NCBI RefSeq assembly: GCF_023721715.1
Contig: NZ_JAMDLG010000001.1
Coordinates: 3,387,784-3,451,783 of the forward strand
Reading direction: 5' to 3'
Origin: Parasegetibacter sp. NRK P23
Lineage (GTDB): Bacteria > Bacteroidota > Bacteroidia > Chitinophagales > Chitinophagaceae
Length of the DNA: 64,000 bases
Below the pieces are notes generated by a model. That model was given only the letters and a program-made list of their open reading frames with translations, had not been told where the DNA came from and did no database searches. This document shows positions 18,436 to 53,488 of the stretch, piece after piece (position 1 is the first letter of the stretch; every line of letters starts with the position of its first letter). Made by a program: the position numbers and the translations under genes.

Positions 18436-18527
18436 CATAGCTCCAGGATGACGCATTCATTGTGTGTTTATATATATGCATGCCGGTTAACAAAACCTTC
18501 TGTTAATCTATTTTGAATACGGTGTTA

Positions 18528-18551
18528 AAGTGAGCTCCCGCTCACTTTTTT
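18528..18551 (+). terminator. terminator after barrel paralogue 1
   Basis: Stem AAGTGAGC/GCTCACTT (18528-18535, 18540-18547) with loop TCCC and a T run. Near-copy of the serS terminator. Confidence 0.82.
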
Positions 18552-40856: not shown

Positions 40857-41918
40857 TTATTTAAAGAGTGTTACAATGTAATATACCAGGGCCGCCAGCA
40901 GGGCACTTACCGGTATCGTGAGTATCCAGGCCCAGAGCAGGTTGATGGTGACCCCCCAGCGCACGGCCGATACCCTTTTGGTAAGTCCGACCCCGATGAT
41001 GGAACCGGTAATGGTATGTGTGGTACTTACCGGGATACCCAGTTTTTCGGTGATGAACAGCGTGAAGGCTCCCGCGGTTTCGGCGCTTACGCCTTCCAGT
41101 GGTGTTACTTTGGTGATGCGGGTTCCCATGGTTTTAACGATCTTCCAGCCGCCCATCATGGTACCCAGGCCGATGGCTGTGTAACATACAATGGGTACCC
41201 AGGTGGGAATATGGGCGATTTTGGCTTTCCCCGTAGCGGCATCCACTGTTTGCTCCACAAGCGCCCAGTGTGGAATTTCACCGCCTGCCGCTGTTACCTG
41301 TGTGGCATACACCAGGAGCGCAGCGGAAATAATGCCCATTACCTTTTGGGAGTCGTTACCGCCGTGACCAATACTGAACAACGCCGAAGAAACAAGTTGT
41401 AATCGCTTGAACCATTTATCGGCCCGATAGGGATTTGATTTCCGGCAGATGTTCACGATAATGATGGTAATAATATAGGCCATGATCATCCCTACAAAAG
41501 GCGCGATGAAGATGAAGGCGAAAATCTGCAATATTTTATCCTGGGCCACCACGGTAAAGCTGCCGGCGTGCGCGATGGCGGCGCCCGCGAATCCACCGAT
41601 AAGCGTATGCGAGGAACTGGAGGGAATGCCGAACCACCAGGTAAGCAGGTTCCAGCTGATGGCGGCAATGAGCCCGGCGAAAATCACTTCCAGGTTGATG
41701 CTGCTGTTCTTCACGGTTTTCGCCACGGTATCGGCCACGTTCAGGTCGAAGATAAAGTAGGCCACTACGTTGAAGAAAGCGGCCCAAACCACCGCCTGGA
41801 AAGGTGTGAGTACTTTGGTGGAAACGATGGTGGCTATGGAGTTGGCCGCGTCGTGAAACCCGTTGATGAGGTCGAAGATCACGGCCAGGATGATGATAAT
41901 GATGAGGAAGGAGAGCAT
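40857..41918 (-). CDS. PiT-family inorganic phosphate transporter
   Basis: A 353-residue membrane protein with about ten helices. Both PiT signature repeats are present: DLINGFHDAANSIATIVSTKVLTP near the N-terminus and GGNDSQKVMGIISAALL in the middle; SSSHTLIGGFAGAAIAH and STTHTITGSIIGVG are the paired S/T-H-T motifs. It imports phosphate with protons or as a metal-phosphate complex. It follows the DUF47 gene on the minus strand, as is usual for this transporter, with an AT-rich inverted repeat in the 85-bp gap. Confidence 0.96.
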   Translation of the reverse strand: MLSFLIIIIILAVIFDLINGFHDAANSIATIVSTKVLTPFQAVVWAAFFNVVAYFIFDLNVADTVAKTVKNSSINLEVIFAGLIAAISWNLLTWWFGIPSSSSHTLIGGFAGAAIAHAGSFTVVAQDKILQIFAFIFIAPFVGMIMAYIITIIIVNICRKSNPYRADKWFKRLQLVSSALFSIGHGGNDSQKVMGIISAALLVYATQVTAAGGEIPHWALVEQTVDAATGKAKIAHIPTWVPIVCYTAIGLGTMMGGWKIVKTMGTRITKVTPLEGVSAETAGAFTLFITEKLGIPVSTTHTITGSIIGVGLTKRVSAVRWGVTINLLWAWILTIPVSALLAALVYYIVTLFK

Positions 41919-42003: not shown

Positions 42004-42651
42004 CTACGCGTATTTGATAATAATGGATTCGATCACGTTTGCGGCGTCTTCGCATTTATCGGTCACGGTTTCCATTGCCTGGTAAATCTCTCTTTTCTTG
42101 ATCACTTCTTTGGCGTCGGGTTCCATTTCGAAGAGGCGGTCGATGCTGAGGTCGAAGATATCATCGGCCTGGTTCTCGATGCTGTTCACTTTCACGAGCG
42201 CGTCGGTGATCTGGCGCATGTTCTTCATGTTGCGCAGTTCTACCAGTGCCATGTGAATCTGTTTGGCGCCCTGTTCAATAAGGTCGGCCATTTTCTGGAT
42301 ACCCTGGTCGTTGGGGTTAACTTTATAGAAGTTGATCTTTTTCGCGGAAGAATAAATGTAATCGGCGATATCGTCCAGCGCGGAGGCGAGGTAGTGGATG
42401 TCTTCCCGGTCGAAAGGGGTGATGAAGTTGCGCCCGAGTTCAGTGAAGATTTTATGGGTGAAATCGTCGTTGATGTGTTCCATATCTTCTATCTGGGAGA
42501 TGAGGGCGGCTCTTTTATCGAAGGAGGGTTCTGAAACAACATCTTTGAGGACCACACCCATTTTTTCCACGTTCTCACCAACCTGTTCAAAGAGGGAGTA
42601 GAATACCTTGTCTTTCGGCATGAAGAACTTCATAATTGAATTCAGGGCCAT
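42004..42651 (-). CDS. DUF47 (PhoU-like) partner of PiT transporter
   Basis: A 215-residue, wholly helical cytoplasmic protein of the DUF47/PhoU-like family. HINDDFTHKIFTELGRNFITPFDREDIHYLASALDDIADYIYSSAKKI is the family signature, with acidic residues that can bind metal. Members sit beside PiT carriers and are thought to control their activity. First gene of the pair. A TAATTTCG box (42670-42677, minus strand) lies ~18 bp before the start. Confidence 0.94.
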   Translation of the reverse strand: MALNSIMKFFMPKDKVFYSLFEQVGENVEKMGVVLKDVVSEPSFDKRAALISQIEDMEHINDDFTHKIFTELGRNFITPFDREDIHYLASALDDIADYIYSSAKKINFYKVNPNDQGIQKMADLIEQGAKQIHMALVELRNMKNMRQITDALVKVNSIENQADDIFDLSIDRLFEMEPDAKEVIKKREIYQAMETVTDKCEDAANVIESIIIKYA

Positions 42652-42877: not shown

Positions 42878-42955
42878 TTAACATTGGGTTAATATTCACT
42901 TCATAATTCGGTAACACTGCGTTAACAAGGAGGTAACATTCGGTTGGTTCTTTTG
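42878..42955 (+). promoter_or_regulatory. Pho-box-like array of 11-bp repeats plus promoter
   Basis: Six hexamers lie at an exact 11-bp period: TTAACA 42878, TTAATA 42889, TTCATA 42900, GTAACA 42911, TTAACA 42922, GTAACA 42933, with a degenerate seventh (TTGGTT, 42944). A -7-like box TTCTTTTG occupies 42948-42955, 17 bp before the ATG of the TonB-dependent receptor. Direct hexamers with 5-bp spacers are the layout bound by PhoB/PhoP-type regulators (TTAACA is the Bacillus PhoP motif). The rest of the 321-bp gap (42652-42972) holds scattered single TTAACA/TTAATA copies, for example 42715-42731. Confidence 0.7.
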
Positions 42956-42972
42956 CACCACAAATTGACTGT

Positions 42973-45795
42973 ATGCAATCTTCTTCTTTACTCAAACCGT
43001 TTCTCTCTCTCTTTTTCATAATGTGTTTCGGCATTCTGAATGCGCAGCAGCCAACCCGTTTAAGCGGAAAAATCATCAACGCGAAAAATGAAGCCATAGC
43101 CGGTGCCACCGTTGAAGTAGTGGGGGTGGGTAAATCACAGGCCGCAAACGTGGAAGGACGCTTCAGCATCGCATTAGAGCCAGGTAAGAAATATACGCTC
43201 ATCGTATCCAATGTTGGGTACGACACGAAGATGCTGGAAGATGTGGAAGTGAAAGCCGGTACGGACAATGATATCCAGATTGTACTGGAAGTGAGCAACG
43301 CCACACTTTCAGAAGTGGTGGTGAAAACATCCGTTAAGAAAGAAAGTACAAGCGCCCTGATTAATTTTCAACGCAACAACACGGCTGTTTCAAGTGGTGT
43401 GGCCGCGGATTTTATTAAGAAAACCCCTGACCGTAACACCGGTGAGGTGCTCAAAAGGGTAAGCGGCGCCAGCATTCAGGATAATAAATATGTGGTGGTG
43501 CGCGGACTGGGCGATCGTTACAATGCCGCCATCATCAATGGTGCGCAGATGCCAAGCTCTGAACCCGACCGTAAGACTTTCTCTTTCGATATCATTCCGT
43601 CTTCTGTAATCGACAATATTGTAATCAACAAAACCGCTACGCCAGATCTTCCCGGAGAATTTGCCGGGGGATTGGTACAAGTGACCACAAAAGACGTTCC
43701 TACGAGAAACTTTCTGAACGTAGGCGTGAGTTTCGGATATAACACTAATTCCACTTTCAGGGATTTTGTAAGCAACGAACGTGGAAAATATGACTGGATA
43801 GGTTTTGACGATGGAAGAAGAGATCTGCCCAAAGGATTTCCTTCATCGGCCCAGGAATACAGGGCTTTGGGCAATGAGGTTGGGGGCACACAAAAGCAGT
43901 TGGACCTCACCAGAAGTTTCCGTAACGATGTTTACAGGCAGGATAATTCCAGAACAGCGCCTATTCAAACCTACCAGATCGCGTATGGCGCCGGAAAGCG
44001 CCTGAAGAACGACGCGCAGATTGGCGCGGTGTTCTCCCTGATTTACCGCAACGCGAAAATGTTGTACGATGTGGAGCGCGCGCAGTATGAGCAGGCAGGT
44101 AACGCGATCTTTAACTATGTGGATGAACAGAACAGGTACAGCACTACCGTGGGTGCCATGGCCAACATCGCTTACGTGAAAGGTCGTCATAAGTTTGCTT
44201 TCAAGAACCTGTACAACCGCTTTTTTGAAGACAATTATTATACAAGGTCAGGCGTAAACAACAACAGGTTGCAGGATATCCGGTTGTGGTCCTCGTTCCT
44301 TAACCAGAGAAGTTTGTACAGCACCCAACTGGAAGGCGAACATCAGCTCACCAACAGCGGAATCAAGTTCAAATGGAACGGTAACTACGCGCTGAATATG
44401 AAACAACAGCCTGATCTCCGCACCTCTTTGTATGTGAATCCGATTGGTGGTGCCGACAGGTTTGAAGTGGATCCCGATGATACGCGCCGCTTCTTCTCCC
44501 AGTTACAGGACCACAGTGCAGGTGCAGGTGGTTATTTCACCGTGCCTTTTAACCTGCTCGGTGAAAAGCAGACTTTCAAAGCCGGAGGTTCAGTGTTGCT
44601 TCGTTTCCGTGACTTTAAATCCAGGATATTCCGGTATGTTCCTTTCTCCGGATCTAATTTCAATACCGACCTGAATTTCCTTCCCTACGATAAGATTTTT
44701 GAACCCCAGAATATTAGTGAATCAGGCTTCGTGCTGGATGAGTTCACCAACAATGAAGACAAATACTTTGGTATCTCTGCCCTGGATGCGGGTTATGCCA
44801 TGTTCGATACAAAATTTTCAGACCGTGTGCGCCTTGTATGGGGACTTCGCGTAGAGTTCTTTGAACAATTCCTCCGTACGAAAGACCGTTCCGCTGAGCA
44901 GGTAGTGATCAACAATGAGCAATGGGATGTATTGCCCTCCGCCAACTTAACTTTCTCCATTAACAGAGATAACAACATACGGGCTTCAATTTCTAAAACA
45001 GTATCCCGCCCTGAATTCAGGGAAATCGCACCATTCCAGTTCTACGATTACGAATCCAACTATGGCGTTTCAGGCGCGCCTTCTCTTGAAAGCGCGGATA
45101 TCTACAATGCCGACCTTCGTTACGAGTGGTACCCTGCACCCGGAGAGGCCCTCACTTTAGGAGGCTTCTACAAGAGATTCGTGAAGCCGATTGAGTTCCG
45201 CCTTGACCCCGGAAGCAACGCCGACAGAAGGTTGTACTTCTACCAGAACGCGAAAGACGCCGATACTTATGGTATTGAATTTGAACTCCGCAAAAACTTT
45301 AGTTTCCTTAACCCCAACAGTGATTTCTTCCAGAACCTCGCCTTCTTCGGCAACCTGACCTATATCTTCTCGCAAGTGAGATTCTCTGACCAGGTACTTG
45401 GAAAGGATGTTTCTGCTGACCGTCCGATCCAGGGACAATCTCCTTACCTGATCAACGGAGGCTTCCAGTATTCCGCTGATAAAAGCGGACTGTCGGCAAG
45501 CTTACTCTACAACAGGGTGGGACAACGCCTTTCACTTGTGGGAAACAATTCTTTGGGCTTCCCGGATATTTATGAAAATCCCCGCGATCTGATCGACTTC
45601 CAACTCGCGAAAAAGGTAGCCAACAAAAGAGGAGAAATTAAACTCACTATTTCAGACATTCTCAACCAAAAGATCATGCTGTACGAGAATGTGGATACCG
45701 ATAAAATCTATAAGAAAGGAACCGACCGCGTGTTCAGTTCCTTCACCCCCGGCAGCACCATCACACTTGGATTCACCTACGATTTCAGCCTCTAA
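42973..45795 (+). CDS. TonB-dependent receptor with carboxypeptidase-regulatory-like domain
   Basis: A 940-residue outer-membrane receptor. Signal peptide (about residues 1-24, ...GILNA|QQP), CarboxypepD_reg-like domain (RLSGKIINAKNEAIAGATVEVVGVGKSQAANVEGRFSI), plug domain (KKTPDRNTGEVLKRVSGASIQDNKYVVVRGLGDRYNAAIINGAQMPSSEPDRKTFSFDIIPSSVID), and a 22-strand-type barrel ending in TITLGFTYDFSL with a terminal hydrophobic residue. It is not of the SusC type and has no SusD partner. The Pho-box-like array upstream and the PiT/DUF47 operon next door suggest a role in phosphorus uptake (inference). A lipoprotein gene follows after 41 nt. Confidence 0.94.
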   Translation: MQSSSLLKPFLSLFFIMCFGILNAQQPTRLSGKIINAKNEAIAGATVEVVGVGKSQAANVEGRFSIALEPGKKYTLIVSNVGYDTKMLEDVEVKAGTDNDIQIVLEVSNATLSEVVVKTSVKKESTSALINFQRNNTAVSSGVAADFIKKTPDRNTGEVLKRVSGASIQDNKYVVVRGLGDRYNAAIINGAQMPSSEPDRKTFSFDIIPSSVIDNIVINKTATPDLPGEFAGGLVQVTTKDVPTRNFLNVGVSFGYNTNSTFRDFVSNERGKYDWIGFDDGRRDLPKGFPSSAQEYRALGNEVGGTQKQLDLTRSFRNDVYRQDNSRTAPIQTYQIAYGAGKRLKNDAQIGAVFSLIYRNAKMLYDVERAQYEQAGNAIFNYVDEQNRYSTTVGAMANIAYVKGRHKFAFKNLYNRFFEDNYYTRSGVNNNRLQDIRLWSSFLNQRSLYSTQLEGEHQLTNSGIKFKWNGNYALNMKQQPDLRTSLYVNPIGGADRFEVDPDDTRRFFSQLQDHSAGAGGYFTVPFNLLGEKQTFKAGGSVLLRFRDFKSRIFRYVPFSGSNFNTDLNFLPYDKIFEPQNISESGFVLDEFTNNEDKYFGISALDAGYAMFDTKFSDRVRLVWGLRVEFFEQFLRTKDRSAEQVVINNEQWDVLPSANLTFSINRDNNIRASISKTVSRPEFREIAPFQFYDYESNYGVSGAPSLESADIYNADLRYEWYPAPGEALTLGGFYKRFVKPIEFRLDPGSNADRRLYFYQNAKDADTYGIEFELRKNFSFLNPNSDFFQNLAFFGNLTYIFSQVRFSDQVLGKDVSADRPIQGQSPYLINGGFQYSADKSGLSASLLYNRVGQRLSLVGNNSLGFPDIYENPRDLIDFQLAKKVANKRGEIKLTISDILNQKIMLYENVDTDKIYKKGTDRVFSSFTPGSTITLGFTYDFSL

Positions 45796-45836: not shown

Positions 45837-47258
45837 ATGAAAAAAGTTTTCTTAGCAGCGGTAGCAGGCATGTTTGCGCTTACTTCCTGCGTAAAGGTGG
45901 AGTTTAACGAGAACAACGGCTCAGGTGGTGGAACTTCTACCGATGATCCTAACGTTACCAAAATTCTTACAGGTACTTACGACAGGAGCATTACCCTGGC
46001 GAAAGGAACCTATACACTGAAAGGATATGTATATGTGAACAATGGCGCCGTGGTAACCATCGCTCCGGGTTCTATCATCAAAAGTGATATCACTGAAAAA
46101 GGAGCCCTTATTGTTGAAAGAGGTTCACGCCTTATCGCAGATGGTTCTCCCACCGAGCCCATCATCTTTACTTCAGGAAAAGCTTCCGGTCAGCGCCAGC
46201 CTGGCGACTGGGGTGGAATTATCCTGCTGGGTAAAGCAACTACTAACCGGCCCACTTCTCCCGCACCTATTATCGAAGGTGGTGTAAACCGTCCTTATGG
46301 CGGAACTGAAGCTGAAGACAATTCTGGTATCCTCCGTTATGTGCGCATTGAATTCGCGGGGATCGCCGCAGAACCCGGATCTGAGATCAATGGTCTTACT
46401 TTGGGTGGCGTAGGTTCTAAAACCATCATCGAAAATGTACAGGTTTCTTATGGAAACGATGATGCGTATGAGTTCTTCGGCGGAACAGTAAACTGTAAGA
46501 ACCTGGTTGCTTTCGCAACAGCGGATGATGATTTCGATTTCGATTTCGGTTACACCGGAAAAATCCAGTTCGCGGTGTCACTGCGCGACAAATTCGCGGA
46601 TACCGACGCCGCCAATGGCATTGAAGCGGATAACGATGGTAGCGGTACTGCTGCAACGCCTTTCACCCGTCCTGTTCTTTCTAACTTCACCTTCATCGGA
46701 CCATACGATACCACAGGATCGGCGGCTACACACAACTATTCCAACAGATGGAGACGCGCTGTTCGCTTTGCCGTGCACAACTCTATCCTGTTAGGTCATA
46801 GGAAAGGTGGTTTTTCCATCGAGTCCGCTGCAACATGGAACGCTTTTTACACCGATAATAATTCTTCTTTCAAGAACAATATCATCGCGGTTTATGCAAA
46901 CCCTGTGTTGGCCGATTCCTCTGCTTCCCGTGCATTTACCGGTGCAAAATATGGCGCTAACCCATTAAGCAGTTCCGACCGTTCTGCCATGATCGCTGAA
47001 ACTGTGGCTGCAATGCGCACGAAAGTAGAAGGCGAGGGTAATACCATTCTTGCTAAACGCGAAGATGTAATGCTGACCAGCCCCTTCATGCTGAATGCAC
47101 CGAACTTTATTCCTGCTTCAGGTTCCCCTGCATTGTCTGGAGCCAGCTTTACAGGACTTGATGCTTACTTCAGCGCAACAACTTACCGCGGCGCGTTCGG
47201 CACCACCAACTGGCTTACCGGTTGGGCAAGCTTTACACCGCAGACCAATAACTACTAA
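45837..47258 (+). CDS. lipoprotein with beta-helix-like repeats, partner of the TonB receptor
   Basis: A 473-residue protein with a lipoprotein signal (ALTSC, Cys18) and then an Asn/Gly/Ser-rich linker. The body looks like a right-handed parallel beta-helix (YVYVNNGAVVTIAPGSIIKS; LIVERGSRLIADGSPTEPIIFTSG; GGIILLGKA). Long GDWGG and DDAYEFFGGTVNCKNLVAFATADDDFDFDFGYTGKIQF blocks recur in Bacteroidota proteins beside TonB receptors. No catalytic residues are evident. It lies 41 nt after the receptor, so probably a surface partner for it. Confidence 0.85.
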   Translation: MKKVFLAAVAGMFALTSCVKVEFNENNGSGGGTSTDDPNVTKILTGTYDRSITLAKGTYTLKGYVYVNNGAVVTIAPGSIIKSDITEKGALIVERGSRLIADGSPTEPIIFTSGKASGQRQPGDWGGIILLGKATTNRPTSPAPIIEGGVNRPYGGTEAEDNSGILRYVRIEFAGIAAEPGSEINGLTLGGVGSKTIIENVQVSYGNDDAYEFFGGTVNCKNLVAFATADDDFDFDFGYTGKIQFAVSLRDKFADTDAANGIEADNDGSGTAATPFTRPVLSNFTFIGPYDTTGSAATHNYSNRWRRAVRFAVHNSILLGHRKGGFSIESAATWNAFYTDNNSSFKNNIIAVYANPVLADSSASRAFTGAKYGANPLSSSDRSAMIAETVAAMRTKVEGEGNTILAKREDVMLTSPFMLNAPNFIPASGSPALSGASFTGLDAYFSATTYRGAFGTTNWLTGWASFTPQTNNY

Positions 47259-47815: not shown

Positions 47816-48676
47816 TTACCTCCCGTGCCCCGGCTCCCAGATCACGCGCACAAAACTACTGAAACGCTGGTTCTCCCTCCTTACCGGGATACCGCCCACA
47901 ATGCCTATCAACAGGTTATCGGCTATCCCTACCCGTAGTTGCGGCCTGATCACCATATCAAAATCGGAACCGTGCAGTTCCTTGTTGAATTCGGTTCCCA
48001 CGAAGTTCCGGGTGCCCGGAATCATATAATGAAAACTGGTATTGATCTCGTAGCGGCTGTGCCACCCGCCGCCAGCGAAGGGCTTTTCCAGCACAGGACC
48101 CGTGTACAGCAACGAATGGAAATTATTGCCCCAGCGCTTTGCGGCGATGAGGAAAGGGTTGAATATGTTCCCCGTAACCGATCGTTGTTTGCCGAGTTTG
48201 TTCAGGTCCGCCAATTCAAGTTCGTTGATGTAACCGATGGCCATACTGGTGCTGGCACGCTGTGAAACAAGGAAAGTCCATTGGATAGCGGTTTTGATGC
48301 TTTCCAGTTTATTGGCGGGCTTCTCGCTGTTGGGTGTTCCGTTGAGTTTCGAGTAGAAGGTGAATGGCAGTTCTACTTCCAGTCCCAATCTGTTAACGGG
48401 TGCCCATTCGTATTCCACCAAAGCTTCGTAACTGTCGTATTTGAGGTTATCGGTGATGCCCAGACCGAAGTTCCATTCTTTCTCTCCTTTTCTTGCGCCA
48501 AGGTCGCGGATCAGGTCAATGTAAAGTGGTTCGGCGTGTAATACTTTATCGGGTTCTTTGGTTTCCTGGATCTTATGGATATAGGCGCTATCTGTATGGG
48601 CCTTGCTTTTTTCTTGTGCATTGGCGGTTATGACCATCAGGCACAAAACACCTGCAGTCGAAAATATTTTTCGCAT
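47816..48676 (-). CDS. exported outer-membrane-like protein, function unknown
   Basis: A 286-residue protein with signal peptide (MRKIFSTAGVLCLMVITANA|QEK). The mature part starts with a His/acidic segment (DKVLHAEPLYIDLIRDLGARKGEKEWNFG) and then has repeated amphipathic strands (AIQWTFLVSQ, NNFHSLLYTGPVLE, MVIRPQLRVGI) ending in VRVIWEPGHGR. The HAEPLYIDLIRDLGARKGEKEWN block seems to be a conserved family mark that I cannot link to a function. It may be a beta-barrel, by analogy only. Confidence 0.8.
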   Translation of the reverse strand: MRKIFSTAGVLCLMVITANAQEKSKAHTDSAYIHKIQETKEPDKVLHAEPLYIDLIRDLGARKGEKEWNFGLGITDNLKYDSYEALVEYEWAPVNRLGLEVELPFTFYSKLNGTPNSEKPANKLESIKTAIQWTFLVSQRASTSMAIGYINELELADLNKLGKQRSVTGNIFNPFLIAAKRWGNNFHSLLYTGPVLEKPFAGGGWHSRYEINTSFHYMIPGTRNFVGTEFNKELHGSDFDMVIRPQLRVGIADNLLIGIVGGIPVRRENQRFSSFVRVIWEPGHGR

Positions 48677-49198: not shown

Positions 49199-50248
49199 TT
49201 AATCTTTCTTCGCGTCCAATGTAAAGCCGATAGTGGTGCCCACATCTATCTTGCTTCTCACGTGAATGGTTTGACCATGTGCCTCCACGATGTGTTTGCA
49301 GATGGCGAGCCCCAGACCGGTACCGCCTTTATCGCGGCTGCGCGCCTTGTCGGTGCGGTAAAAGCGTTCGAATATGCGGATAAGGTGTTCTTCTTCTATA
49401 CCCAGTCCGTCATCGGAAATTTCAATCAATACGTGTTTTCCATCGGTATTGTACATACTGGCCACGATGGTGCCGCCTGCCTTACCGTATTTGGTGGCGT
49501 TCTCCACGAGGTTGATGAGCACCTGCCTGATCTTCTCTTTGTCGGCGAAAACGGTGAGTGGCGGTTCGCATCCCTTTTTGATGCTGCATTTGATGCCCTT
49601 CTCATTGGTTTTGATGGAGAGGGATTCAAACACTTCTTTCGTGAGGTCCTGGATCACGAAATTCTGTTTGTACAACGCCTGTTCTCCTCTTTCCAGTTTG
49701 GAGATTTCATCGAGGTCGTTCATCAGGTTCACCAGGCGGTCCACGTTTTTGGAGGCGTTGGTGAGGAAGCGCTTGCTGATGTCAGGGTCTTCCATGGCGC
49801 CGTTCAGCAGGGTATCCACGTAGCCCTGGATGGCGAAGATGGGCGTTTTGAATTCATGCGCGAGGTTCTGGAGAAACTCTTTCCTGTAGGCTTCGTTCTG
49901 CTTGAGGTTTTCGATTTCCTGTTTGCGTTGGTTGGCCCATTTCTCCACATCCATCCTTACTTCATCAATGCCTTTCTGGGGAATGATGTATTTGTAATAC
50001 ATCTCCTCCTTTTTAGAGGCTTTGGTCTGGTAAATGTATTTGTAGATGAGTTTTATTTTCCGGTAGATAAAGCGTTGAAGGGTGATGGCCACGAGCGCGT
50101 AGCTGCCGGCGAACACCAGGAAAAAAGCGGATACACCGATCCACCATACGGGACGGAGCCAGTAAATACCCAGCGCGATGGGCACGGATAGCATAAACGC
50201 CGTAAGTGCCGAAAGCTGTCGGGGCGAAAGGTTTTTGGTATCGAACAT
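49199..50248 (-). CDS. PhoR-like sensor histidine kinase
   Basis: A 349-residue membrane kinase. Two close N-terminal helices (about 13-30 and 36-57) with almost no periplasmic loop, so it probably does not bind a ligand outside. HisKA domain with the phosphorylated His131 in NLAHEFKTP; HATPase domain with N box NLVENATKYG, G1 DDGLGIE, FERFYR and G2 GGTGLGLAICKHIVEAHG. The overall form is that of Bacteroidota PhoR proteins, which sense phosphate state through other proteins. The cognate regulator gene lies 130 bp upstream with an AT-rich inverted repeat between them. Confidence 0.93.
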   Translation of the reverse strand: MFDTKNLSPRQLSALTAFMLSVPIALGIYWLRPVWWIGVSAFFLVFAGSYALVAITLQRFIYRKIKLIYKYIYQTKASKKEEMYYKYIIPQKGIDEVRMDVEKWANQRKQEIENLKQNEAYRKEFLQNLAHEFKTPIFAIQGYVDTLLNGAMEDPDISKRFLTNASKNVDRLVNLMNDLDEISKLERGEQALYKQNFVIQDLTKEVFESLSIKTNEKGIKCSIKKGCEPPLTVFADKEKIRQVLINLVENATKYGKAGGTIVASMYNTDGKHVLIEISDDGLGIEEEHLIRIFERFYRTDKARSRDKGGTGLGLAICKHIVEAHGQTIHVRSKIDVGTTIGFTLDAKKD

Positions 50249-50378: not shown

Positions 50379-51071
50379 TTACAGCTCAAACTTGTAGCCC
50401 ACACCTTTTACAGTCGTGATGCAGTCCATCCCCATTTTCTGCCTGACTTTCCTGACGTGTACATCGATGGTGCGGTCGCCAACGATCACATCGTTGCCCC
50501 ATATCTGGCTGAGGATTTCGTTGCGGAGGAACACGCGGCCGGGTTTGGAGGCGAGCAGGTAGAGGAGTTCGAATTCTTTTTTGGCGAGGATGATCTCGTG
50601 GTCGTCGGCCATGACCACGAACTTCACGGGGTCGATGGTGAGGTTATCTATTTTCAGTACCCCGCCTTCTTCTTTGGTATTGATGTTCTTGTTGAGCCGG
50701 CGGAACAGGGCGTTTACGCGGCTGGTCAGTACTTTCGGGCTGATGGGTTTGTTTACGTAGTCGTCGGCGCCGCTTTCCAGTCCTTTGATATGGGAGTGCT
50801 CGTCGCTGAGCGCGGTGAGCATGATGATCAGTGTGTCGCGGAAGGCTTCCTGGCTGCGGAGGATTTCACAAACTTCTAGTCCTGTTCTTTTCGGCATCAT
50901 GATGTCCAGCACAATGAGGTCGGGTTTCTGGGCTTTGGCCTGTTCCAGCGCTTCGTCTCCATTGGCGGCCCTCACTACTTCGTAGCCTTCCTTTCTGAGG
51001 TTATAATCCAGTATTTCCAGGATATCGGGCTCGTCGTCGGCGATGAGTATCTTCTTGCCTTTCGGTTCCAT
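50379..51071 (-). CDS. PhoB-like response regulator
   Basis: A 230-residue OmpR/PhoB-type regulator. Receiver domain (residues ~7-122) with acidic pocket DD (12-13), phosphorylated Asp56 in VLDIMMP, Thr in MLTALS and Lys in VNKPIS; C-terminal winged helix (about 135-228: LAKKEFELLYLLASKPGRVFLRNEILSQIWG, VGDRTIDVHVRKVRQKM). PhoB-like proteins bind direct repeats with an 11-bp period; such an array lies at 42878-42949. First gene of the two-component operon. No clear -7 box was found upstream. Confidence 0.95.
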   Translation of the reverse strand: MEPKGKKILIADDEPDILEILDYNLRKEGYEVVRAANGDEALEQAKAQKPDLIVLDIMMPKRTGLEVCEILRSQEAFRDTLIIMLTALSDEHSHIKGLESGADDYVNKPISPKVLTSRVNALFRRLNKNINTKEEGGVLKIDNLTIDPVKFVVMADDHEIILAKKEFELLYLLASKPGRVFLRNEILSQIWGNDVIVGDRTIDVHVRKVRQKMGMDCITTVKGVGYKFEL

Positions 51072-51217
51072 TTAACAATATATTTACACAAAAATAATTT
51101 GCGGAGGGCTTCTAATGTTAAATGTAGGGATTATGTAATTGTTAAGTCGGAATAAGCTGTGTATGGAAGGGTATGCATGGTGAATACACGGAAAAACCGG
51201 CCCGTAAAAAAACGGTA

Positions 51218-51249
51218 CCCGGTGGCACCGCTATAGCGGTGCCACCGGG
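51218..51249. promoter_or_regulatory. perfect 32-bp palindrome upstream of the caspase-like gene
   Basis: CCCGGTGGCACCGCTA followed directly by its exact reverse complement, without a loop. Centre at 51233.5, ~34 bp before the -7 box. It is too GC-rich to be part of the AT-rich surroundings. Could be an operator, or a REP-like repeat. Confidence 0.6.
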
Positions 51250-51266
51250 GTTAAGTAAATTGGTCG

Positions 51267-51274
51267 TATTTTTG
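51267..51274 (+). promoter_or_regulatory. -7 element TATTTTTG of the caspase-like gene
   Basis: A perfect TAnnTTTG box, 27 bp before the ATG at 51302. No matching -33 TTG at the usual distance, as that place is taken by the palindrome. Confidence 0.6.
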
Positions 51275-51301
51275 CATCTTATTTCTCATATCCTGTTCAT
51301 T

Positions 51302-53488
51302 ATGAAGGTACTTGTACGAATTTGCTGTTCTCTGCTGCTGATGGCTACCGTTTCCGGGGTATGGGCCCAAACTTCGGATACACCTGCTAAGAATATCCTG
51401 CGTTCCAACCCCAGGATATTGTGGCACGATAAGATAGATGAAGAACAGAAAAAAGCGCTGGCCCTGGGCAAAGCATCCGATGTGGTAAAGGTTTCAGAAG
51501 ATGAATCCATTAACCTCCAGGTAACGGACGCGGTTATCCGGAAAGTAGATAAATTCCAGGATGAAGTGGAAGCCGATTCCACCCTGGACCACCGGCTGAA
51601 AGTGAAATACCTCCGTGGTATGGAGGATGTGCTGCGTTTGTACAACACTGGCTGGCAGGACCGTTCCTTCAAACCCGCGCAGGCGCCCGAACTTGTAGCC
51701 GCGTATTTCGAAACGATGAAGGCGGACAAAAAAGGGGAGAACATGACACTGCAGATCGCGAAATATCCCTATGCCGTTGGAAACGTGTTGATCAGGGCGT
51801 CTTCTTTTATTGACAATCCAGGTTTGAAAGAGAGTGGCTATATCGTTTTCAGAAAATATTGCGCCCTCCATCCAAATGATATTCTGCCCAAACTCAGGGT
51901 GAATTCTGATTATCCCTTCACCGATAGCCTGATCATCGCCGCCGCGCACCGTGATCCGAAAAAGTTATACGACTATGCCGCCGCCGGGAACAAACTGGGG
52001 AGCAGGATACGCAATGTGGACGAACCACTGGTAAGAACCGTGTCGCAACTGGCCACCAGCCGGAGCGGGCAGTTGTATTTCCCCTTCCTCGATAACCTCT
52101 ACCACGGAAAGATCACACTCGACCAGGTGGATAAGGCTGCGGAAAATGACGAAACTTACTATAAACTGCTGGTGAAAACCCAGATCGAATACGCCGGTCG
52201 CCTACCCGAAAGGGATACCCCCATGGAAATGCAGGCGCTCACGGATATGTTGGGCAGAAAGGGCAAACAGGTGTATGTGAGCCAGATCAACGCGTTGCAC
52301 GATTCCCCCGATGCCATCCGCTTTAAAATACTGCAATCCCTTACCCCGGAAGAACTGTATTACCTGGCGGTATTGGGAGAAGATGAAATTTATACTTCCA
52401 GCTATACCAATGGTGTGTACAAACTGATCTTTCAGAAAATGGCCGTTCCCCGCGGCGATAGTTTACTGATGCGGGTGAACTTCGACCATTTCAGGAAGTT
52501 CATTAAAATGTCTGCGGGATACAATACCCTCGATCATTTCCTGGGCACCATGGAGAAAGACAATGCCATCGCACTGATGCGCGCCTTCGCGCTCCGCCTG
52601 GAAAAGACCCGCGACATGGAAGATCCTGTGGACGTGGCCGATTCCTACGGAAGCATCCGCAATGAAGAAATTAAGGCGATCGTATTAAGGGAAATCAAAC
52701 AGGGATATGCCACCAACAGGCAGAATGGCAACAAAAAAGGAGAAGTGATCTACAATATCCTCGAAACCCTTTTTGCCTCCTCCGATACTTCACAACATGT
52801 GGACCTGTCCGCCAAACTCGGTATTCCCCCCGTGTACAATGTTTCTTACAAATCTCTTTCCAGCGACAGCGGCGCGGTGATCCAGCAGGTATTCTTTTAC
52901 GGCGACAAAGATGGTATTGATTCCTACGCCAACTTTATGGGCATGTTCCGCGGAAATCCCAATTGGAAAGTGGTTTCCAATAAGCAATGGGTGGAAATCA
53001 GTTCCACCAAAGGCAAGCCCGTACGCATTTTTGCCAACCTTCCGCTGGACAATGATACCGACCAGGATGCGAAGGCGCAACATGCACTCTCCGCTTATAT
53101 GTCGGAGAAAGGACTCAGCCCCACCATCGTGGTGCACCGCGGGCACAGTTACCATGTGAAATATACCATCGCGCAACTGGCACCCTCGGCAAGAGTGGTG
53201 ATTCTCGGGTCCTGTGGCGGTTACCATAACCTGGACCAGGTGCTGGATATTTCGCCCGACGCGCACATCATTTCTTCCAAGCAGGTGGGTACCCGCGTGG
53301 TGAACGAGCCTATTCTTCAATCCATCAACGAATGTGTGCGCAGTGGAAAGAATATAGAATGGATCAGCATGTGGGGCGACCTGGCCTCCAGGGTAAAAGA
53401 TGAACGTTTTGAAGATTATATCCCTCCCCACAAAAACCTGGGCGCGATATTCATAAAGGCTTACAAGAAAGCAATGGGAGAGGAGTAA
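51302..53488 (+). CDS. large exported protein with a putative C-terminal caspase-like fold
   Basis: A 728-residue protein with signal peptide (MKVLVRICCSLLLMATVSGVWA|QTS) and a long helical body (residues ~40-560) without a recognised domain. The last ~165 residues show an alpha/beta pattern like clan CD peptidases: strand plus D (QQVFFYGDKDG), strand with His (TIVVHRGHSYHV; His615), helix, strand with Cys (ARVVILGSCGGYHNL; Cys638), then AHIISSKQVGTRVV. His before Cys at the ends of neighbouring strands is the caspase/gingipain/clostripain dyad order. Their 23-residue distance is shorter than in known members, so activity is unproven. An ABC transporter gene follows after 21 nt. Confidence 0.75.
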   Translation: MKVLVRICCSLLLMATVSGVWAQTSDTPAKNILRSNPRILWHDKIDEEQKKALALGKASDVVKVSEDESINLQVTDAVIRKVDKFQDEVEADSTLDHRLKVKYLRGMEDVLRLYNTGWQDRSFKPAQAPELVAAYFETMKADKKGENMTLQIAKYPYAVGNVLIRASSFIDNPGLKESGYIVFRKYCALHPNDILPKLRVNSDYPFTDSLIIAAAHRDPKKLYDYAAAGNKLGSRIRNVDEPLVRTVSQLATSRSGQLYFPFLDNLYHGKITLDQVDKAAENDETYYKLLVKTQIEYAGRLPERDTPMEMQALTDMLGRKGKQVYVSQINALHDSPDAIRFKILQSLTPEELYYLAVLGEDEIYTSSYTNGVYKLIFQKMAVPRGDSLLMRVNFDHFRKFIKMSAGYNTLDHFLGTMEKDNAIALMRAFALRLEKTRDMEDPVDVADSYGSIRNEEIKAIVLREIKQGYATNRQNGNKKGEVIYNILETLFASSDTSQHVDLSAKLGIPPVYNVSYKSLSSDSGAVIQQVFFYGDKDGIDSYANFMGMFRGNPNWKVVSNKQWVEISSTKGKPVRIFANLPLDNDTDQDAKAQHALSAYMSEKGLSPTIVVHRGHSYHVKYTIAQLAPSARVVILGSCGGYHNLDQVLDISPDAHIISSKQVGTRVVNEPILQSINECVRSGKNIEWISMWGDLASRVKDERFEDYIPPHKNLGAIFIKAYKKAMGEE

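Follow-up and report, generated by a model that had tools for sequence, protein, structure and literature searches.

A Probable Phosphate-Starvation Operator Upstream of a TonB-Dependent Receptor Gene of Parasegetibacter sp. NRK P23 and Its Recurrence among Relatives

The DNA analyzed here (hereafter the window, a whole stretch of 64,000 nucleotides from Parasegetibacter sp. NRK P23) carries a gene for a TonB-dependent receptor of 940 amino acids (42973..45795, plus strand), in which carboxypeptidase-like, plug, and barrel domains were recognized. Its best named relative was TIGR01782, whose score fell below the cut-off. The SusC model TIGR04056 gave 29.1 bits against a cut-off of 368.25 bits, and the partner gene product has no Pfam match, with no SusD found; the original prediction that the receptor is of a non-SusC type was thus borne out. 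This partner is a putative lipoprotein of 473 amino acids (45837..47258, plus strand), for which neither Pfam nor NCBIfam gave a match. Its structure model (mean pLDDT of 86.3) is rich in predicted β-strands and may be read as a parallel β-helix. A Foldseek search with the model returned weak matches of β-helix type, none of them at E ≤ 0.001, and the lipoprotein profile, when searched against PDB sequences, returned no match. The lipoprotein gene adjoins a non-SusC receptor gene by coordinates (gaps up to approximately 0.4 kb) in all 12 genomes of a test set, which we chose among those with good receptor matches. Relatives of the lipoprotein also occur on 21 plasmid records, Pseudoalteromonas and Sphingomonas among them. 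A HAEPLYID family protein (47816-48676) is encoded between the lipoprotein and phoR genes.

Farther downstream, a histidine kinase (49199..50248) and a response regulator (50379..51071) are encoded on the minus strand. The kinase is PhoR-like, with HisKA and HATPase_c domains and no PAS domain among its Pfam matches. The regulator consists of receiver and Trans_reg_C domains, and it is the single protein of its genome matched at E ≤ 1e-55 by NF053854, the NCBI model for PhoB of Bacteroidota. Since it scored below both curated PhoB cut-offs (229 against 296.2 for TIGR02154 and 216.8 against 270 for NF053854), PhoB-like is its proper name. The same holds across the 12 genomes, each of which gave exactly one NF053854 match at E ≤ 1e-55, with scores of 203.5–222.3 that exceeded the cut-off of 270 in none of them, so that the model itself would not name these proteins PhoB. 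This single match lies within approximately 21 kb of the receptor gene in 10 of the 12. A 771-residue protein encoded divergently from phoB (51173-53488), which has no Pfam or NCBIfam match, is found beside phoB both here and in 9 of 11 relatives.

On the other side of the receptor gene, and divergent from it, lie a DUF47/PhoU_div protein gene (42004..42651, minus strand) and, in tandem with it, a gene for a PHO4-family (PiT) phosphate transporter (40857..41918, minus strand), both assigned by Pfam. The neighborhood proposed originally, with a divergent PiT–DUF47 pair and a PhoB/PhoR-like system nearby, therefore stands, the regulator being the best PhoB-model match of its genome. DUF47 was detected in all 12 genomes, 8 of which carry PiT–DUF47 beside the receptor gene. 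PhoU was detected in none of the 12 (13 of 14 control genomes were positive), and PstC exceeded its cut-off in none, with three weak matches below it (12 of 14 controls were over the cut-off). A classical Pst-PhoU-PhoR system was hence not found here, as neither PhoU nor an above-cut-off PstC was detected in these genomes.

Direct reading of the plus strand upstream of the receptor gene confirmed the predicted Pho-box-like array (42878..42938), composed of six (T/G)T(A/C)A(C/T)A hexamers at exact 11-bp steps: TTAACA (42878-42883), TTAATA (42889-42894), TTCATA (42900-42905), GTAACA (42911-42916), TTAACA (42922-42927), and GTAACA (42933-42938). Such a six-hexamer array appeared in none of 100 dinucleotide-preserving shuffles. 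A six-hexamer KTMAYA-N5 pattern matched the window exactly once, and tolerating three mismatches added the one-unit shift of the array itself. When an 11-mer weight matrix was built from 71 receptor regions, that of the window among them, the array scored 44.5; elsewhere in the window no four-unit score reached 14 apart from the array's own shifts, and the top score across 40 simulated 64-kb strands was 15.6. A pattern of three KTWAYA hexamers gave one match in the 4.83-Mb genome and one for its reversed control, which means that three hexamers by themselves are not decisive. A second three-hexamer site, with one mismatch, is present at 18501-18528 on the minus strand.

The promoters of Bacteroidota possess a −7 element with the consensus TAnnTTTG in addition to a −33 element. 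In the window, the octamer TTCTTTTG (42948..42955, plus strand) has one mismatch to this consensus and is separated from the last hexamer by nine bases (42939-42947); the receptor ATG at 42973 follows 17 bp past it. The array accordingly ends where the −33 region is expected, as had been proposed, a placement that follows from this consensus. The spacing is not peculiar to the window. With a strict script, the distance from the hexamer end to a TAnnTTTG-like element was exactly 9 in 55 of 71 receptor regions, and a TTT[GC] at the matching phase was found in 62 of the 71, the runner-up phase having 8. TTTGC was almost invariant in the 55 arrays, which had been picked by this very element. In 49% of these 55, the spacer AATT occurs at the fourth unit from the promoter (unit −4), against 0–9% at the remaining units; the half-site at 42900..42910 of the window (plus strand) carries such an AATT-type spacer, which thus marks position −4 in about half of the arrays. 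The fixed 9-bp spacing to the −7 element suggests that the array sits in place of the −33 element, and its position over that region would fit an activator touching the sigma factor.

Conservation was examined for 71 receptors, consisting of L002, 30 loci (the window's own included), and 40 more with a frame of 928–967 amino acids; these last 40 places were part of a longer match list, to which a few genomes contribute two. One partial relative with 26% identity (L003) was excluded from the count. Spacings of 7 to 15 bp were compared by the best four consecutive hexamers within at most 300 bp upstream, and 11 bp was the best spacing in all 71, including that of the window, with some of the margins small. 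The unit can be written (T/G/a)TAA(C/T)A, and the first spacer bases after it are rich in T. For paralogues from the same genome set, namely TonB receptors larger than 1050 amino acids, 11 bp was best in 5 of 20. Three paralogous pairs, in each of which a lipoprotein relative accompanies a further TonB receptor (L143, L145, and L146, with receptors of G093, G021, and G015), were also noted. The large paralogous receptor L095 (G015), which adjoins a lipoprotein relative and is the one receptor of the three pairs that was examined, has no array, and none was found at receptor L098, approximately 5.5 kb from L144.

The period also extends over other families. Relatives of the lipoprotein were matched in 106 of 158 genomes, and we took 40 upstream stretches, one per genome, among the matches listed. 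A receptor gene precedes the lipoprotein gene in 25 of these 40, and period 11 was the best at 23 of the 25 when projected starts were used (the misses being L211 and L226) and at 22 of the 25 with ORF starts (L226, L231, and L246 missing). Receptors with period 11 come from 13 of the 14 families sampled; several of the 23 win narrowly, for example with 14.2 against 13.5, and some arrays are weak. As a control, other large ORFs in the same stretches exhibited period 11 in 2 of 10 cases. In the 15 stretches lacking a receptor gene, period 11 was observed before the lipoprotein gene in 12.

The length of the array was evaluated by numbering the half-sites back from the −7 element, to which 66 of the 71 arrays could be anchored and 5 could not. 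Half-sites −1 to −4 were each present in 94–98% of the 66, half-sites −5 and −6 occurred together in 31, were both missing in 33, and were split in 2, and half-site −7 was present in none. The number of split cases was 6, 2, and 2 of 66 at thresholds of −2, 0, and 3, respectively. A Fisher test on the co-occurrence of −5 and −6 gave 2e-16, a value that ignores kinship. Array length varies with the counting scheme: strict unbroken runs of 4, 5, and 6 units numbered 31, 1, and 25 of 66, the remaining 9 being shorter; a TTT[GC]-anchored count of 62 arrays gave 4, 5, and 6 units in 29, 1, and 30, and none in 2; and a looser, unanchored count of all 71 gave 3, 4, 5, and 6 units in 4, 35, 6, and 26. 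The fives labelled by script are doubtful, as unit −5 of L025 is a poor hexamer, and L068 has half-site −6 while scoring −21 at −5. A quick tree was made for 70 receptors, 65 of them labelled. The three length labels need 22 changes on it, and the two main ones need 20–21 each; starred branches force 16 of the latter, the stars of such a quick tree being less reliable. The labels are approximately as scattered as shuffled ones. These repeated changes suggest that the array has switched between four and six units many times, with fives hardly seen.

Other genes sharing the array were sought by the genome scan that the original prediction had proposed. It pointed to genes for PhoX, a PlcP-like protein, and a SusC; as a detector in itself it was of limited use, since a composite pattern gave 12 matches (two of them the receptor array) against 14 in the reversed control. 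A looser pattern gave 9 matches, again with two from the receptor array, against 1 in the control. The three genes were picked from the pattern matches after the fact by position and function, and the PlcP-like and PhoX arrays were then tested in relatives. Further matches concern two TonB receptors (L039, L050) and one AraC-type gene (L041). Matches inside genes and those before adenylate kinase-, transketolase-, and LacI-type regulator-like genes were set aside by eye.

The PlcP-like gene encodes a calcineurin-type phosphoesterase (PF12850) and is followed by a glycosyltransferase gene (PF13528). It was matched in 12 of 12 genomes (in one at just 38% identity), and in all 12 hexamers in 11-bp register were located directly upstream with scores of 13.4–28.5; as the case in the genome of the window had led us to the gene, 11 of 11 are new cases. 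Two of these upstream regions, L166 and L171, gave high scores on the other strand as well (15.5 and 18.9). TTT[GC] stands in the same phase in 9 of the 12, the other 3 promoters being left unanchored by the script. By eye, eight of the arrays have four units and four have six, and L167 could be six. PhoX was found in 4 of the 12 genomes, and each gene has the array (3 of 3 among new cases), with scores of 12.5, 17.3, 29.0, and 25.2; two are irregular (five units in L127 and up to seven in L128), and two of the four promoters were unanchored by the TTT[GC] script. The expectation that the array should stand upstream of receptor orthologues and of other Pho genes hence agrees with what was observed at the receptors (71/71), the PlcP-like genes (12/12), and PhoX (4/4, two of them irregular). 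A SusC–SusD–phospholipase C operon gave an array score of 7.7, which is inside the chance range for 64 kb, so that its membership is suggestive at most.

A shorter form of the motif was found upstream of phoB itself, where TTAACA-N5-ATAATC (51129..51145, minus strand) makes two half-sites 74 bp before the ATG. A pair of the form TTAACAATTNN-(A/G/T)TAA (or GTAACA) is present at this place in 8 of the 12 genomes and missing in 4, and a full array was found in none of the 12. The pair pattern was written after inspection of these same upstream regions. Its only match in the window is at 51145 on the minus strand, and it gave 10 matches on both strands in 277,714 bases of related stretches, the phoB regions included.

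The E. coli PHO box consists of tandem direct 11-nt units, two per box, in which a well conserved portion alternates with a less conserved one (PMC4415409). PhoB binds there as dimers in tandem, the box overlaps the promoter upstream element, and several boxes occur at some promoters (PMC4415409, PMC3348028). The present array is likewise made of tandem direct repeats of 11-nt units and precedes phosphate-starvation genes in the genomes that carry it (PlcP-like in 12/12 and PhoX in 4/4, with two irregular). It differs in its core, which is (T/G)TAA(C/T)A rather than CTGTCAT, in its Bacteroidota-type −7 element, in its length of four or six half-sites set at a constant phase, and in belonging to genomes with no PhoU and no above-cut-off PstC (12 examined). 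The PhoP box of Bacillus subtilis, TT(A/T/C)ACA with spacers of approximately 5 bp and four or more repeats, has nearly the same hexamer and spacing, whereas phylum, promoter type, and regulon differ.

For Bacteroidota, the low-phosphate response has been measured in Flavobacterium johnsoniae, where phosphate depletion raises a TonB-dependent transporter (TBDT) and the lipoprotein FII of the PhoBR operon, together with PlcP, a glycosyltransferase, and PhoB (PMC8115612). The FC values in Table 1 of that paper are 8.02 for the TBDT, 9.91 for FII, 8.59 for PlcP, 5.42 for the glycosyltransferase, and 3.06 for PhoB; that of PhoR is 0.76, and PhoR was not significantly induced. By domain and context, the locus resembles the PUSIV of F. 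johnsoniae, in which PhoBR likewise has a TonB receptor and a lipoprotein as neighbors. The F. johnsoniae PlcP belongs to pf12850, as does the PlcP-like protein here. The glycosyltransferase of F. johnsoniae is of pf04101 and lies in the PhoBR operon, whereas here a PF13528 protein follows the PlcP-like gene. Plant-associated Bacteroidetes are reported in the same paper to lack PstSABC, with pstS found in 26 of 102 Flavobacterium strains (PMC8115612). In Caulobacter, the low-phosphate lipoprotein ElpS (CC0170) is encoded next to the TonB receptor CC0171, with which it co-occurs in genomes; CC0171 is said to be constitutive, and the locus is linked to type II secretion (PMC2996285). Compared by context and fold, the present pair resembles both ElpS and FII–TBDT in that the lipoprotein adjoins a non-SusC receptor and its predicted fold agrees. 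The F. johnsoniae paper (PMC8115612) nowhere uses the word "promoter", PMC3547664 mentions the Pho box once and in general terms, and we found no described Pho operator for Bacteroidota among the open-access papers listed by our searches.

From sequence comparison, the six words before the receptor gene are very probably landing sites of a phosphate-starvation regulator. The reading we favor, to which we assign a probability of approximately 0.88, is that the array serves as an operator-promoter of a Bacteroidota Pho regulon, at which PhoB-like dimers switch on the receptor and lipoprotein genes. Under phosphate starvation, the PhoR-like kinase would phosphorylate the PhoB-like regulator, whose gene lies 4.6 kb past that of the receptor. 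The phosphorylated dimers would then line up on the DNA in head-to-tail order, each taking 22 bp (two half-sites). Three dimer sites would be filled at the array of the window, and two or three in its relatives. The stacked-dimer reading, on a promoter that would depend on its activator, is taken from the E. coli PHO box, where two 11-nt units make a box and PhoB binds as dimers. The promoter-proximal dimer would lie over the −33 region, in constant helical register with the −7 element, and would recruit RNA polymerase through the sigma factor, replacing the −33 element. The genes thereby switched on would form an outer-membrane pair, similar to Fjoh_0545/0546 and CC0171/ElpS, that may import a phosphorus compound, and the PlcP-like phosphoesterase–glycosyltransferase operon and PhoX would be co-induced, perhaps together with the SusCD–phospholipase C operon. 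A phosphate-starvation regulon including the receptor, as proposed originally, is supported by this comparative evidence, and F. johnsoniae genes of matching type are induced at low phosphate (PMC8115612). To that first reading the comparison adds the breadth over families, the fixed phase, the length of four or six, further members of the regulon, and the failure to find PhoU or an above-cut-off PstC in the genomes examined.

A different regulator might occupy the same sites. WalR-, RpaB-, and MtrA-like members of the OmpR family bind direct repeats of about this spacing, in which case the phosphate link would be coincidental. The regulator indeed scored under the PhoB cut-offs and has MtrA as its best PDB sequence match, but the second best is RegX3, itself a phosphate regulator, and each genome has a single match at E ≤ 1e-55 that is near the receptor gene in 10 of 12. 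Moreover, PhoX and PlcP-like genes carry the array too, the phoB pair is present in 8 of 12 genomes, and the F. johnsoniae counterparts, as judged by domain and context, are induced at low phosphate (PMC8115612). We regard binding by such a regulator as quite improbable. A repeat that arose by chance or for structural reasons and has no regulatory role is a scarcely credible account of the hexamers: the chance level of three-hexamer patterns genome-wide would suit this, but the array was absent from 100 of 100 shuffles, and period 11 was kept in 71 of 71 receptors while the length changed and the phase stayed fixed.

The cargo is a separate question, since the receptor could be Pho-regulated and still import something other than phosphorus, such as a metal chelate or a glycan, with the lipoprotein binding or cutting glycans. 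The lipoprotein model weakly resembles pectate lyase and tailspike, FI and FII of F. johnsoniae were modelled as polygalacturonase-like (PMC8115612), and a scan of ten neighboring proteins gave no phosphatase family among the Pfam matches. Against this, the Caulobacter relative is said to be accessory to phosphatase activity (PMC8115612), and the pair stands beside PiT–DUF47 in 8 of 12 genomes and near PhoBR in 10 of 12. A non-phosphorus cargo thus appears unlikely, if by no great measure.

Returning to control of the array by PhoB-like dimers, the lengths of four or six units look as if evolution had recorded in them that binding proceeds by dimers. The array offers a concrete Pho-box model (unit, spacing, and phase to the −7 element) for Bacteroidota, which would allow phosphate regulons to be predicted from sequence and would tie the TonB receptor–lipoprotein pair to phosphate. 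It also poses the question of how phosphate is sensed by PhoR in genomes where no PhoU and no above-cut-off PstC were detected. A bold reading is that PiT–DUF47 stands in for Pst-PhoU in feeding PhoR. The fuller version, in which PiT–DUF47 signals phosphate to a minimal PhoR in a regulon devoid of Pst-PhoU, and PhoB acts as whole dimers only, two or three of them stacked at a fixed phase, is offered tentatively, as possible though short of probable. Under this version, promoter strength would evolve by gain and loss of whole 22-bp dimer sites and not of single half-sites.

In the genome of the window, approximately seven variable hexamers in 11-bp register were also observed upstream of a Porin_O_P gene (L038 1479-1555, G000:C1 near 708468). 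They point away from this gene, neither a gene nor a −7 element is clearly recognizable downstream of them, and they could drive a small RNA or be due to chance. A second DUF47 gene was observed approximately 1.4 kb from the PlcP-like gene at L266 and L174 (G131:C8).
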